From Catenovulum sediminis (GTDB lineage Bacteria > Pseudomonadota > Gammaproteobacteria > Enterobacterales > Alteromonadaceae): a DNA stretch of 64,000 nt. The stretch is from positions 3,782,001 to 3,846,000 of the forward strand of contig NZ_CP041660.1 of assembly GCF_007289895.1 (NCBI RefSeq), in the 5' to 3' direction. The notes beneath the pieces were generated by a model, which ran no database searches, had not been told where the DNA came from, and saw nothing but the letters and a program-made list of their open reading frames with translations. Both the position numbers and the translations under genes were made by a program. This document shows positions 971-5,567 of this stretch, piece by piece. The stretch's first letter is position 1. Every line of letters starts with the position of its first letter.

Positions 971-1425
971 AATTTAATCAACAGAACAGTTTTGTATTTA
1001 ACGGCACGTACCATCGATATCGATGGTTTTTAACTGCGATTGTTGCGGAAGATAAAACTAATTATTGGCATTCTGCAAATGAGATATTAGATCCACGCCC
1101 CATTGAAGATATATGTGCGATTTTGGCAACTCACTACTCCGAGCCAAATAAAGCAATACAGCTTATGAAAAAAGGAAATATTCTTACATTACGAGAAACG
1201 CTTAAAAGTTCAGATGTAGATAATAACTATCATCAATTCAGTAACCAGCCCGATGCATATTGTATACATCAATACAATGTGCATGACTCTAACGAAAGTT
1301 TATTTTGGCAAAGAAAAATAAACTTTATCGAGTTCACTGGCACTAATTGGCGTTCGTCTTTATTGCCTGATGAATTCTTTAAACCTAAAAATGTTACGCA
1401 ATTTGAATTGGGATTTTTGATGTGA
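967..1425 (+). CDS. Hypothetical protein of the integrative element
   Basis: A 152-residue soluble protein rich in aromatic residues (several Trp, Tyr and Phe) and not recognised. It starts with an ATGA overlap on the previous gene's stop and ends with GTGA overlapping the next start, so it lies inside a translationally coupled run. A perfect 16-bp palindrome (CCATCGATATCGATGG, 1011-1026) falls in its codons 16-20 and is followed by five T residues. This may be chance, since it encodes an ordinary HRYRW stretch. Confidence 0.55.
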   Translation: MKFNQQNSFVFNGTYHRYRWFLTAIVAEDKTNYWHSANEILDPRPIEDICAILATHYSEPNKAIQLMKKGNILTLRETLKSSDVDNNYHQFSNQPDAYCIHQYNVHDSNESLFWQRKINFIEFTGTNWRSSLLPDEFFKPKNVTQFELGFLM

Positions 1426-1604
1426 AAAAACTATTAATCAAACAATGCCCTGATCCGCTTCGCTGGTACCGAAGGTTAATCGGACAAACTGTACCGTTTT
1501 TGGGTGATGTTGGTACCGAATACAAAAGCAAAGAACCCGAGGGTTACATTAATTTTGTTCAGTATGAAGATGCTGAAATTATTGAAGGTGATGAAAATGG
1601 CTAA
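1422..1604 (+). CDS. Small hypothetical protein of the integrative element
   Basis: A 60-residue protein with a basic N-terminus (KKLLIKQ, PLRWYRRLIG) and an acidic C-terminus. It starts with GTG at 1422, overlapping the preceding TGA by 4 nt, and its tail overlaps the AlpA-like start at 1597. The short length and the overlaps on both sides support a real coupled gene, but the family is unknown. Confidence 0.45.
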   Translation: MKKLLIKQCPDPLRWYRRLIGQTVPFLGDVGTEYKSKEPEGYINFVQYEDAEIIEGDENG

Positions 1605-1803
1605 ATTACTTGATAAAAAAGAATTTATGCAGCGTTTACACTGTGGAACTACTAAGTTTTGGCAAATCTCTAAGCAAGATCCAAATTTCCCAGAACCACA
1701 TGTAACCATAGGTACGACGAAACTATGGCTAGACGAACAGGTAGATGATTACATTGTAAATGGATTAAAAGGAAAAGAGATTATATTGAAAAAGGCGGCT
1801 TAG
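1597..1803 (+). CDS. AlpA-family excisionase/transcriptional regulator
   Basis: A 68-residue protein beginning MAKLLDKKEFMQRLHC, followed by a helix-turn-helix (TTKFWQISKQDPNFPEP) and a wing (TIGTTKLWLDEQVDDYI). This is the usual layout of AlpA/MerR-like excisionases (about 65-70 residues). In P4-like elements such proteins act on integrase expression or promote excision. I chose ATG at 1597 because AAGG at 1585-1588 sits 8 nt upstream; longer in-frame starts run back into the preceding gene. The stop codon lies inside a terminator hairpin. It is the last gene of the plus-strand operon. Confidence 0.75.
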   Translation: MAKLLDKKEFMQRLHCGTTKFWQISKQDPNFPEPHVTIGTTKLWLDEQVDDYIVNGLKGKEIILKKAA

Positions 1804-1812
1804 CCGCCTTTT
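1790..1812. terminator. Bidirectional intrinsic terminator
   Basis: AAAAGGCGGC and GCCGCCTTTT form a perfect 10-bp stem with a 3-nt loop, with A residues on one side and T residues on the other. It separates the AlpA-like gene (plus) from the convergent proteasome-like gene (minus) and can serve both. Confidence 0.8.
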
Positions 1813-1813
1813 A

Positions 1814-2692
1814 CTAATTAATAGAGTTTAAAAGAATATCATCCATTTTTTTAAGCAACTTTCTATCTTTTTCATTTATTGTAACTGTTCCCTTAGAAAC
1901 TGGACTCTGCCCTAGTCTCTTTAACTGCCTAATTTCATAAGCCGCATCGATGGGACTAGCACAAACAGCCCCGGCATTACGAGCGATTTTATCCAATTCG
2001 TCCATTACCTGTACTTGCTGTAAAGCATCGGTTTTACTTCCCATTACAACGTTTTTGTTTAAGTTAGTCATCTTGACCTCGCCTCCAGTAAATATATCGC
2101 CGCCTTTGCTATGACATGCTTGTACTATTGATTTCGAAACCTCAGCATCCAGCCCAGTATTTAAAATATTCGAAATGGCCTCTTTTAAAGATTTTTGCTT
2201 ACAAGCTCTCTCATTAGCCGTCTTTATCTTAAAAATTGGAAGTTGAATATTTCTATTCGTTTTATGCGCTTTGTACATTTTTGAGTTTTTACCTGAACCA
2301 ATTGCAAAAACTTTGACGTCTAAAGGCGCATCAGTAGAAAGTCTATAAATTTCGTCTTGACCAAAATCATTTTTTGGTGAATTGGCGAATAACTTTAGCT
2401 CACCATCATACTTTAGAATATTAAATTGAATATTATTCAATTTAGATTTATATGTTACTAAGTCTAGAACGTGATCCGCATTTTGTAAAACCTCATCGTA
2501 AAGCGACAAAAACCACTTAAACGCAATATTTGCTCCAGCAAAACCATACAACACCCCGTTGATAACAATAGTTTTACAAAAATCAGGTGAATCTATCCAT
2601 TTAACAAGCAATCCATTACTAACTAGGCTCACCCTACTATCTGACGCCATTCTAGCTTCGTCACCATCGTTCCTAAATATCGTTGTAGTCAT
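1814..2692 (-). CDS. Proteasome beta-subunit-like Ntn hydrolase on an integrative element
   Basis: Removing Met1 exposes TTTIF, the processed N-terminus of proteasome/HslV-type threonine peptidases. Counting that Thr as 1, the sequence keeps Asp17 in ASDSR, a Lys in FCKTIVI followed by LYGFAGA (the Lys33/Gly47 block, with about six extra residues before it), a GSG motif (Ser near 132), and GGDIFTGGEV near 196-205, matching the Asp166-x-x-Ser169-Gly-Gly block with Thr for Ser. The protein is 292 residues, longer than beta subunits because of a tail of about 80 residues that ends in a charged helix. The start at 2692 is chosen over 2707 because only it gives a mature N-terminal Thr, and GGGA precedes it. 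No ATPase partner is visible. Threonine-peptidase fold: strong. Substrate and role: unknown. Confidence 0.7.
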   Translation of the reverse strand: MTTTIFRNDGDEARMASDSRVSLVSNGLLVKWIDSPDFCKTIVINGVLYGFAGANIAFKWFLSLYDEVLQNADHVLDLVTYKSKLNNIQFNILKYDGELKLFANSPKNDFGQDEIYRLSTDAPLDVKVFAIGSGKNSKMYKAHKTNRNIQLPIFKIKTANERACKQKSLKEAISNILNTGLDAEVSKSIVQACHSKGGDIFTGGEVKMTNLNKNVVMGSKTDALQQVQVMDELDKIARNAGAVCASPIDAAYEIRQLKRLGQSPVSKGTVTINEKDRKLLKKMDDILLNSIN

Positions 2693-2727
2693 TCTATCCA
2701 TTCCCATGTTAGGCGATGGATATTAAA

Positions 2728-2759
2728 GCAAAATTGAAGAGATTTGAAATCAATTTTGC
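2728..2759. promoter_or_regulatory. Perfect inverted repeat between the proteasome-like gene and the integrase
   Basis: GCAAAATTGA and TCAATTTTGC form a perfect 10-bp inverted repeat around a 12-nt AT-rich spacer. It lies 36 bp upstream of the proteasome-like gene's start and just past the integrase stop. It could be an operator for the proteasome-like gene or a weak terminator of int; nothing in the sequence decides between these. Confidence 0.45.
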
Positions 2760-2785
2760 GAATAACTAATGCTATTTAGTATATA

Positions 2786-3970
2786 TTACTTATAAAGCGT
2801 ACATTTATTCTTAAAAATCAACTCATGATAACGCTCGTACGCGTCTAACTGTTCATCAATCCAATCGTGCTTATTATAAACGGCCATTACCCCACCCAAA
2901 ACATGGCCTAACATTTTTTCAGTTACGTGCGGCTCAACACCTTTTTCAGATAAACGAGTTGATAGCGTTCGTCTAAAATCATGAATACGCCAATGCTGAA
3001 TATCTAACTTTACTCTGAGCCTTGCAACCATTTTATGAACAGAATGAACATCCAACGGTTTAGTGTAGCTTTGCCCAGGACACAAATACTCAGTGTCGGG
3101 ATATGCAGTTATTAACGTTTCGATAATTCGTAAACATCGTTCGGGAATTGGCCGACGTATTGGCTTATTAATTTTTGAACGTTCCGCTGGAACTGTCCAA
3201 GTTCGAGCGTTTAAATCAAAATCAGACTTTAATGCAGATCTAATTTCTGACACTCGCGAACCGAAAAGCATTGTAAGCTGAACAATAGATTTAGTATTTA
3301 AACCGCATTTAGTTTGCTCAAGCGCCACCCAAATTTTATATAACTCAGGCAGTGTTAAAACCCTGTCGCCCTGCTTGGGCGTTTGCCCAACATCGCGGGG
3401 CTGGATATCTAACAGCGCGGGCCTTTGGATCATAGAACGCCTGTAACACCAACTTAAACAGTTTTTCATTACACGCAGTACATTGTATGAAACAACCGGC
3501 TTATTTTCTTGTATAGAAATTCTATCAAAAAATTGCAGCCATTCGTCTGTTCGCACTTTGCACGGCGATCTAGTTGGAAATAACCCAACTACATATTTAT
3601 TGTATATTTGTTTGTAAACGCCAACTGTTGATTTGCGTAAATTAGCATTTACATGAATTGAAAACCAAGCTTTAAAGCAATCGTCAATGTTGTTCTTGGG
3701 CTTCGTTTCGCTCGCATAACGCGGATCAACGCCATCCATAACAAGTTTACGCAGCGGTAACAAACGCTCACGCGCTTCTGCTAGTGTTAGCTCTGGATAT
3801 CGGCCGATTGTATAACAAACGGGTTTGCCGTTTATTCTATATCTGTATTGAAATGCGATGGTACCTTGCTTTGACACCCGCGCTGACATACCATCGCGAT
3901 CAGCAACCGTTTTTACAGAGTCATTTTTTTTGTTAAGAAGACTTCTTAGTTTTGCATCAGTTAGCGGCAT
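2786..3970 (-). CDS. int: P4-type tyrosine recombinase (integrase)
   Basis: A 394-residue phage integrase. The N-terminal arm-binding domain (about residues 1-90; LTDAKLRSLL and the GKPVCYTIGRYPELTLAEARE block) is of the DUF4102/P4-integrase type. A core-binding SAM-like domain follows (about 95-190). The catalytic domain (about 205-380) shows the Arg in GSRVSEIR, the His-x-x-Arg in HDFRR, the second His in LGHVLGG and the nucleophile Tyr in AVYNKHD. I chose ATG at 3970 rather than 4006 because the family starts at MPLTD. The gene points into the element, and its start is close to the chromosomal junction, as is usual. It should catalyse integration and, with the AlpA-like protein, excision. 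Confidence 0.92.
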   Translation of the reverse strand: MPLTDAKLRSLLNKKNDSVKTVADRDGMSARVSKQGTIAFQYRYRINGKPVCYTIGRYPELTLAEARERLLPLRKLVMDGVDPRYASETKPKNNIDDCFKAWFSIHVNANLRKSTVGVYKQIYNKYVVGLFPTRSPCKVRTDEWLQFFDRISIQENKPVVSYNVLRVMKNCLSWCYRRSMIQRPALLDIQPRDVGQTPKQGDRVLTLPELYKIWVALEQTKCGLNTKSIVQLTMLFGSRVSEIRSALKSDFDLNARTWTVPAERSKINKPIRRPIPERCLRIIETLITAYPDTEYLCPGQSYTKPLDVHSVHKMVARLRVKLDIQHWRIHDFRRTLSTRLSEKGVEPHVTEKMLGHVLGGVMAVYNKHDWIDEQLDAYERYHELIFKNKCTLYK

Positions 3971-4130
3971 AAACGTATATACACAGCATGTAAGAGTTAT
4001 ATACACATTAATTTACACGATTTACGCCGTATGTTAAAACACAAATAAGAATTAAAGCGGATAAAAGCGAATGACTATGAATATCTAATCAAATGATATT
4101 AAAGAGATTTAAGAAAGCCAACGAATAAAT

Positions 4131-5567
4131 ATGAATGATTTAAAAAGACAAACAATACTCTGGCATGATTTTGAGACTTGGGGGGCCAATCCTAAAATTG
4201 ATCACCCAGCGCAATTTGCAGCCATTCGTACCGATTTGGATTTAAACGAAGTTGGTGAGCCTGTTGAGCTTTTTTGCAAGATACCACAAGATTATTTACC
4301 AAATCCAGAAGCCTGTTTAATTACCGGTATAACGCCACAGCAGGCGCAGCGCAAAGGGCTTAATCAGCATAAATTTATGCGTCTAATTTTGCAGGAAATG
4401 GCTCAACCCAATACCTGCAGCGCAGGCTACAACACAATACGTTTTGATGATGAAGTAACCCGCTATAGTTTATACCGTAACTTTTTTAACCCTTACGAAC
4501 GTGAATGGAAAAATGGTAACAGTCGGTGGGATATTATTGATTTAGTGCGCACCTGTTATGCGCTCAGACCAGAGGGCATTAACTGGCCTAAAAAAGAAGA
4601 TGGTTCGCCGAGTTTTAAACTAGAAGATTTAACAAAAGCAAATGGGTTAGCACACGAAAGTGCGCACGATGCGGTTTCAGATGTTCGCGCGACAATTGCC
4701 ATGGCAAAATTGATCAAAGAAAAGCAGCCCAAGTTGTACCAGTACATATTTAGTATTCGCAACAAACGAAAAGTGGCTGAGTTAATTGATATCAATAATA
4801 TGACACCTTTGGTGCACGTTTCTTCTAAAATTAAATCTGTGCATGGTTGTTGCACTTGGATATGCCCGATAGCTTGGCACCCAACCAATAATAATGCCGT
4901 CATAGCACTTAATTTGATGCAAGACCCCAGCCCCTTATTGAATATGACGGTAGAACAAATTAAAGAAAAAATGTTTACCCCTACAAGTCAATTGGCAGAA
5001 AACGAAGAGCGACTTCCCATTAAACTGATTCAGCTAAATAAATGCCCTGTTTTGGCCACAGCTAAAACGTTACTGCCTGAGAACGCTGAGCGTTTAAAAA
5101 TTGATAGAGAAGCTTGTTTAGCCCATTTAAAAATAATCAAACAGAACCCAATTATTCGGGAAAAACTCACTCAACTCTACGAACAAATGGACTTTAGTTC
5201 AGAAACTGACCCTGATTTTGCTTTGTATGACGGGTTTGCTAGTTCACACGACCAAGCGCAAATGGAACAAATACAACAATTAAGTGAACCTGCATTGGCT
5301 GAGTTTACCCCCAGTTTTGAAGACGAGCGTTATGCAACCTTGTGGTTTAGGTTTAAAGCAAGAAATTATTTACAATTTTTGTCTCCTGCTGAAGTGCAAG
5401 CATGGAGGGCTCATTGTCAGGCACGGTTAACCGGCGAGCAAAATTATGCGGGACTGACTATTGACCAATTTATAAACAAACTAGATACGCTTGCTGTTGA
5501 AAATTCAAGCAATGAGCGCAACATGAACGTGTTAAAGGCGCTTTTTCGCTTTGTTCAGGAAATATAA
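4131..5567 (+). CDS. sbcB: Exodeoxyribonuclease I
   Basis: A 3'-to-5' single-strand DNA exonuclease used in recombination and mismatch repair. It has 478 residues, against about 475 for E. coli SbcB. The N-terminal DEDD exonuclease domain shows WHDFETWG (first Asp and Glu, about residues 11-14), GYNTIRFDDEV (about 98-108) and HDAVSDVRAT near 178-187 (motif III His and Asp). The C-terminal half covers the SH3-like and helical regions of the family. It is the first core gene beyond the integrative element and stands alone. Confidence 0.97.
   Translation: MNDLKRQTILWHDFETWGANPKIDHPAQFAAIRTDLDLNEVGEPVELFCKIPQDYLPNPEACLITGITPQQAQRKGLNQHKFMRLILQEMAQPNTCSAGYNTIRFDDEVTRYSLYRNFFNPYEREWKNGNSRWDIIDLVRTCYALRPEGINWPKKEDGSPSFKLEDLTKANGLAHESAHDAVSDVRATIAMAKLIKEKQPKLYQYIFSIRNKRKVAELIDINNMTPLVHVSSKIKSVHGCCTWICPIAWHPTNNNAVIALNLMQDPSPLLNMTVEQIKEKMFTPTSQLAENEERLPIKLIQLNKCPVLATAKTLLPENAERLKIDREACLAHLKIIKQNPIIREKLTQLYEQMDFSSETDPDFALYDGFASSHDQAQMEQIQQLSEPALAEFTPSFEDERYATLWFRFKARNYLQFLSPAEVQAWRAHCQARLTGEQNYAGLTIDQFINKLDTLAVENSSNERNMNVLKALFRFVQEI

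Follow-up and report, generated by a model that had tools for sequence, protein, structure and literature searches.

A stand-alone proteasome-beta-like hydrolase gene beside the integrase of a Catenovulum sediminis prophage

We analysed a 64,000-nucleotide stretch of Catenovulum sediminis DNA (the window; bases 3,782,001-3,846,000 of NZ_CP041660.1, the larger of the two contigs of a 4.87-Mb genome), in which the gene at 1814-2692 on the minus strand encodes a T1-like N-terminal-threonine hydrolase. The gene product is probably an intact stand-alone enzyme of the T1 superfamily, from the group comprising phage and HslV-like proteins, carried as accessory cargo by a complete-looking temperate tailed phage. 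A T1-type fold with an intact active site is hardly in doubt. The protein forms a small clade with two relatives, and is distinguished from the phage-borne proteasome homologues already described by an insert and a conserved C-terminal extension.

Gene start, active site and clade-specific regions

The gene and its parts are as follows.

1814-2692, minus strand: T1-like N-terminal-threonine hydrolase gene (292 aa, stop codon within the coordinates; mature Thr1 is residue 2)
2687-2689, minus strand: catalytic Thr1 codon, adjoining the start codon at 2690-2692
2081-2098, minus strand: DIFTGG codons, residues 199-204, with Asp166, Thr169, Gly170 and Gly171 as placed by the alignments
2108-2290, minus strand: stretch ahead of Asp166, residues 135-195, with an insert of about 33-40 residues (low-confidence model)
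1817-2056, minus strand: C-terminal extension, residues 213-292, about 80 residues, mostly helical in the model

The full open reading frame (ORF; 1814-2707, minus strand) is intact, and three in-frame ATGs precede the TTT of the window protein (MGMDRM-TTTIF). In both close relatives the earliest in-frame ATG, GTG or TTG is a TTG exactly ahead of TTT; because both TTG codons sit at that place, 2692 is the likely start, and the threonine-exposing frame is then 1814-2692.

Proteasome residue numbers are used here, and those of Ser129, Asp166, Ser169 and the remaining positions are the ones we take to be standard. The numbers of Thr1, Asp17, Lys33 and Gly47 are stated in PMC8665760. In an alignment of 36 proteins (three of this clade, 22 phage proteins, three other T1-like proteins and eight HslV), the window protein has T1, D17, K33, G47, G128-S129-G130, D166, T169 and G170 in that order, and all the blocks named by the original prediction, which had been made from the sequence letters and had noted Thr in place of Ser169, were recovered. 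D17 and K33 are kept in all 36 rows and T1 in 35, the other having Ser, in line with the homology that had been proposed. The Lys33-like position needs one correction, since a short insertion precedes it and Lys33 is thus residue 39 of the mature window protein. Thr1, Asp17, Lys33 and Gly47 are common to all three clade members. Ser129 and Asp166 are present as well, the latter on the strength of the alignment and not of the model, and position 169 is Thr, likewise in several phage members. The pattern Asp166-x-x-(Ser/Thr)-Gly is found in 3/3 clade members, in 21 of the 22 phage proteins (Cys in the other), in one of the three further T1-like proteins and in none of the eight HslV as aligned, where the HslV alignment is uncertain at that site.

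Three regions set the clade apart. An insertion of 6-9 residues, compared with HslV and the phage proteins, lies ahead of Lys33 and would fall, by our reading of the strands in the model, between strands 3 and 4. The insert ahead of Asp166, about 33 residues relative to HslV and about 40 relative to phAPEC8, is common to all three members, as is the extra C-terminal tail of about 80 residues that had been predicted, which carries a conserved CASPxDA...E..QL...GQ..VS block. Identity within the clade is lowest in the insert region (31-48%), with 43-52% in the extension and 47-62% in the N-terminal core. The proportion of nonsynonymous differences (pN) is about half of a near-saturated synonymous proportion (pS), or less, so the gene is under purifying selection. 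Its GC content is 35.5% compared with 41.8% for its prophage, i.e., the gene is AT-richer.

Relatives, family placement and predicted fold

The two close relatives are 49% and 44% identical to the window protein, and clade lengths are 289-292 residues. The second member (49%) was found by a profile search of 196 relatives' genomes, on contig JABSOJ010000511.1 of an Alteromonadaceae metagenome-assembled genome (MAG). The third (44%) lies on a viral contig, in a filamentous-phage (inovirus) provirus, downstream of the genes for its replication protein, coat protein, minor head protein and Zot; a gene close by resembles, by eye, a host patatin-like gene. The neighbourhoods of these homologues bear on the predicted link with integrases to different degrees: an integrase adjoins the window gene, the ORFs around the second member on its 3-kb contig are all unnamed, and no integrase-excisionase pair was recognised by eye in the inovirus. 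As a separate observation, the inovirus cargo region (L101:6768-9584) contains a 181-nt, 72% direct repeat of the end of an HTH-like (helix-turn-helix) gene and three copies of a 47-nt terminator-like repeat (64-100% alike), these repeats standing between successive cargo genes, like exchangeable cassettes.

Searches returned few further candidates. For close relatives of the window protein, a first scan gave one of 98 genomes (that of C. sediminis), the family scan with the inovirus protein as query two of 395 (that of C. sediminis and that of the second member, G849), the scan of genome contigs one MAG contig (1/48 stretches), and four viral-contig scans two loci, the window locus included. 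Because the scans work with short peptide patterns, members at a greater distance may have escaped them. A phylum search matched 3 of 398 genomes, its own included; the other two matches were TPR-repeat-like proteins by eye and were rejected as chance. In tblastn the window protein matched no phage at E<=0.01 and no plasmid at E<=1, and the inovirus member's protein matched neither phages nor plasmids at E<=1. At E<=10 three phage records appeared for the window protein, of which Aeromonas phage vB_AceP_PAc (E 0.3) proved to be a true relative, the other two being crAss002 (E 8). The Aeromonas phage protein led to 178 phage records matching at E<=0.01, whose annotations, taken as a set and not record by record, read hypothetical, HslV family, putative 20S proteasome or similar. 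PHROG 1040 was also tried as a genome query; it hit 330/369 genomes, in many of them by matching HslV (as in E. coli, one of the controls), and we drew no counts from it. Other T1-like proteins seen in passing were one at L099:5100-5687 on the minus strand (PF00227 E 4.7e-7), clustered with an LMWPc-like protein and, by eye, PrfH- and RtcB-like genes, and short orphans in two relatives' genomes (L096:4871-5347, L097:5732-6352, L098:5472-6077), that of L096 lying near DNA adenine methylase-like and phage lysozyme-like genes (by eye).

By profile, the window clade is nearer to the phage 'peptidase HslV family' (PHROG 1040) than to HslV. The predicted membership of peptidase family T1 was upheld by PHROG 1040, which matches the window protein at E 1e-7 and its relatives at 2.2e-9 and 3.8e-9 (3/3 clade members), but not by Pfam, NCBIfam or PADLOC, which gave no T1 family for the window protein at E<=1; the only names below threshold in these libraries were unrelated (best NF041310, E 0.029, and MOZART1, E 0.091). 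The anti-phage defence profiles of PADLOC 2.0.0, a library covering families described by 2023, had no match, and phmmer against PDB sequences gave a chance match only (E 0.88), with no sequence match to Anbu or BPH there. In profile-profile comparison the three-member clade reached P 97.3 (E 2e-11, residues 1-213) with ten long phage members and P 84 (45 columns) with 11 short ones, compared with P 11 (E 0.0027, 81 columns) for HslV and P 0.15 for reversed HslV.

The window protein and its two relatives group as a single clade in the tree (100/100), which sits on a long branch apart from the HslV sequences, themselves a clade at 98/100. The phage rows need five changes on the tree and thus do not form one clade. 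Because bootstrap values are unsettled and several branches are long, we use only these two clades from the tree and leave the deeper order aside. The tree omits near-copies or close kin of kept rows (L104-L107, L111, L112, L116 and the duplicates L108, L109, L113, L120), L110 (without a standard start), two further T1-like extras (L092, L097) and, for balance, 26 of the 34 HslV rows.

The predicted structure contains the Ntn alpha-beta-beta-alpha core. In the second structural comparison the alignment-based model matched only 20S, HslV and Anbu chains among the 50 matches listed, as the original prediction had anticipated for HslV, Anbu and 20S beta. The top Foldseek match is HslV 6kui, Anbu is also among the fold matches, and many VIA-align rows begin with model residue 2 aligned to chain residue 1. 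Model helices span residues 55-63 and 65-85 with a one-residue break, which we compared with the feature 'helix H2 missing' of PPH, the phage proteasome homologues.

The prophage and the cargo question

The neighbouring features in the window are these.

4158-4176, no strand assigned: attR, 19-bp repeat CTCTGGCATGATTTTGAGA; the attL copy stands beyond the window, 41,428 bp further left
2786-4006 (start possibly 3970), minus strand: tyrosine integrase (PF00589 E 5e-22, Arm-DNA-bind_3 E 1e-17)
1504-1803, plus strand: excisionase / AlpA-like HTH gene (weak profiles; true start probably inside the ORF)
1790-1812, no strand assigned: bidirectional terminator-like hairpin AAAAGGCGGCTTAGCCGCCTTTT (z -3.8 on plus, -2.9 on minus; absent from the terminator-scan list)
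2728-2759, minus strand: 10-bp AT-rich hairpin between the integrase and peptidase genes, terminator-like or operator (z -4.6 for 2690-2800; absent from the terminator-scan list)

What had been described as an integrative element is a full-length tailed prophage of 41,428 bp, bounded by an exact 19-bp attachment (att) repeat and mostly outside the window. Judged by its genes it is a complete-looking siphophage-like prophage: between the att sites lie the small and large terminase, portal, head maturation protease, major head, tail, tape-measure and repressor proteins, together with head completion, connector and tip attachment domains and an antiterminator Q-like protein. An IMG/VR contig (42,667 bp) also contains it. 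The attR site lies in the first codons of the host exonuclease I gene (PF08411 E 3e-98), presumably sbcB. At the left end the att repeat closes the stub MNNTIQPTILWHDFE, and at the right end the phage side gives the exonuclease I gene a new start, MNDLKRQ; insertion in the 5' end of this gene (window 4131-4176, contig position 3744730) possibly alters the host nuclease.

The peptidase gene lies 93 bp after the end of the integrase (78 bp with the first ATG) on the same strand, and converges with the excisionase-like gene over the common terminator-like hairpin. Its predicted position as an orphan between an AlpA-like gene and an integrase stands as to the orphan state, while for the gene called AlpA-like the HTH/excisionase matches are no more than weak (phrog_597 E 3.3e-4, phrog_668 8.3e-4, phrog_66 0.0024). 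In agreement with the prediction of no ATPase partner, profile scans of 51 ORFs, out of 53 listed from one att site to the other, revealed no AAA+ protein (the remaining two are of 50 and 55 aa; a 2,295-aa ORF was scanned as two pieces). A host hslV-hslU pair was recognised by eye elsewhere in the genome, at 0.47 Mb.

That the peptidase gene is accessory cargo and not a core phage gene is likely. The same clade is present in a tailed prophage and in an inovirus provirus, so two unrelated sorts of temperate phage carry it, and both this and the integrase survey fit accessory cargo, as first suggested. The survey covered 11 related integrases, 35-43% identical, from 12 of 295 genomes, its own included. 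An AlpA-like frame (by eye) lies downstream of six of the 11: immediately next in L124 and L127, with a single small ORF on its own strand intervening in L132, and with other genes intervening in L125, L131 and L133. In L126, L128, L130 and L134 the stretch read contains no such frame, and the contig of L129 ends. In the place that the peptidase occupies here, L125 (2744-3596) carries a small protein judged RelE-like by eye, without a Pfam match, together with a PF21716 protein that is probably an addiction-module antidote.

Elsewhere at the left end, an ion-channel gene (PF07885) and a staphylococcal-nuclease homologue (PF00565) next to attL (L003:9319-11100) are more probable cargo. Just outside attL (L003:3445-8452, minus strand) three ORFs with a common GNSIVEGM... 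block alternate with other genes, perhaps, at a guess, a duplicated toxin-like array.

Possible roles and comparison with known systems

If the enzyme works as its residues suggest, host methionine aminopeptidase would remove Met1 and free Thr1, with no need of a propeptide. Thr1, with Lys33 and Asp17, would attack the peptide bond, and Gly47 would form the oxyanion hole. The insert ahead of Asp166 appears to sit where helices H3 and H4 form the inter-ring contact of the proteasome, which makes a standard double ring unlikely. The conserved C-terminal extension would be the likely recognition or partner site that chooses the target, and the enzyme may act without a dedicated ATPase on one or a few exposed substrates, probably in the lysogen. 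Proteolysis of a specific target is reasonably probable. Defence against other phages as the benefit is possible though doubtful; from the place of the gene among cargo linked to integrases, protection of the lysogen can fairly be guessed at, but no more than that. The full picture, a single-gene prophage module for defence or host modification, in which a proteasome-beta-fold enzyme without a ring ATPase, and probably without a double ring, uses its extension to select one target, a protein of an invading phage or of the host, and moves, as cargo, among Alteromonadaceae temperate phages of both the tailed and the filamentous kind, is rather improbable as a whole.

Several results weigh against an intact stand-alone enzyme carried as cargo. 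Residues 135-200, Asp166 included, are modelled below a pLDDT (predicted local distance difference test) of 50, so the complete active site is not visible in the model, and, single-sequence folding having failed (pLDDT 33.6), the fold depends on an alignment in which phage relatives abound. The clade as known has just three members. A clear foreign gene at exactly this place occurs with only three of the 11 related integrases, which supports the idea of a cargo slot between integrase and excisionase, but thinly. The promoter scan of 1400-4200 (five sites vs 9.1 in shuffles) gave no site in the gap ahead of the peptidase gene. The AAA+ negative rests on profile scans, with 10 of the 51 ORFs covered by PHROGs alone.

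Other roles were weighed on the same evidence. A role in phage development, with virion, lysis or takeover proteins processed during the lytic cycle, would suit the 11 of 14 phage loci in which phoH, lysozyme or holin/endolysin genes stand close to the relative (3-kb flanks), as well as the 178 phage records that match a relative; it is improbable for a gene that here shares the strand of the integrase, a long way from the head and tail genes, in a prophage with its own head maturation protease, and whose clade recurs in an inovirus. Self-control of the prophage, by cleavage of, e.g., repressor, excisionase or integrase, is suggested by the position between the integrase and the excisionase-like gene and by possible co-transcription with the integrase, yet we regard it as decidedly improbable, as no T1-like protein was seen among the frames listed after ten related integrases (by eye; the eleventh contig ends) and no integrase-excisionase pair was recognised by eye in the inovirus carrier.

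An HslV paralogue that docks on host HslU, and hijacks or blocks the HslUV protease, is very unlikely. The weak profile similarity to HslV next to that to the long phage relatives, the long branch outside the HslV clade and the length of 292 aa with insert and extension (174-180 aa in the eight HslV rows) speak against it, although the host does possess an hslV-hslU pair, the Met-Thr start and catalytic residues are held in common with HslV, and HslV 6kui is the first Foldseek match. Least likely of the four is a specific transpeptidase or ligase like connectase: the short insertion between strands 3 and 4, as we read them, is at the site of connectase's signature insertion (PMC8665760), but its length is only some 6-9 residues and the model predicts no two-helix element at that point. 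The stand-alone hydrolase carried as cargo remains our preferred explanation.

HslV, Anbu, BPH and 20S, the bacterial members listed in the original prediction, do not make up the whole set, for PHROG 1040, PPH and AAH, with their kin RPC and DPH, had already been described. Fuchs et al. (2021; PMC8665760) gave the phage proteasome homologues the name PPH and also described AAH; RPC and DPH are longer or divergent kin. PPH are of about 140 residues, and for RPC and DPH no occurrence in phages is marked in Table 1 of that paper. Proteasome homologues carried by phages are common, and the discussion in PMC8665760 offers no clue to a specific function; in the open-access literature searched, no function of such a homologue has been announced. 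In Salmonella jumbo phage pSal-SNUABM-04 two HslV genes are reported without HslU (PMC7823757). Since orphan T1-like genes have already been described in phages, the orphan state here is not unusual.

The clade offers a testable setting, an accessory gene that a complete-looking prophage has in common with an unrelated filamentous phage, with a conserved extension that might point to the target. The case would be a rare one of the proteasome fold serving outside ATP-driven protein turnover. PHROG 1040, its best profile match, seems to overlap with PPH, and with both the window protein shares phage carriage, the orphan state, the Met-Thr start, D17, K33 and the GSG and DxxSGG blocks. It differs in its insertion before Lys33, its insert before Asp166, its conserved extension and the place of its gene next to an integrase in a temperate phage, and at 292 aa (clade 289-292) it lacks the compact size of PPH. 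RPC (e.g., WP_140207863) resembles it by description alone (a C-terminal extension without known fold, proteobacterial, group I), and Anbu and BPH in being bacterial proteasome-like proteins. With HslV (ClpQ) it has in common Thr1 after Met1, D17, K33, G47 and GSG, whereas no HslU or other ATPase lies beside its gene, DxxTGG replaces GDICxYTN (the alignment there being uncertain) and an 80-residue extension is added. Unlike connectase, it lacks the two-helix insertion between S3 and S4. Phage-borne orphan T1-like proteins are already published, and this clade differs from them by its insert and C-terminal extension.
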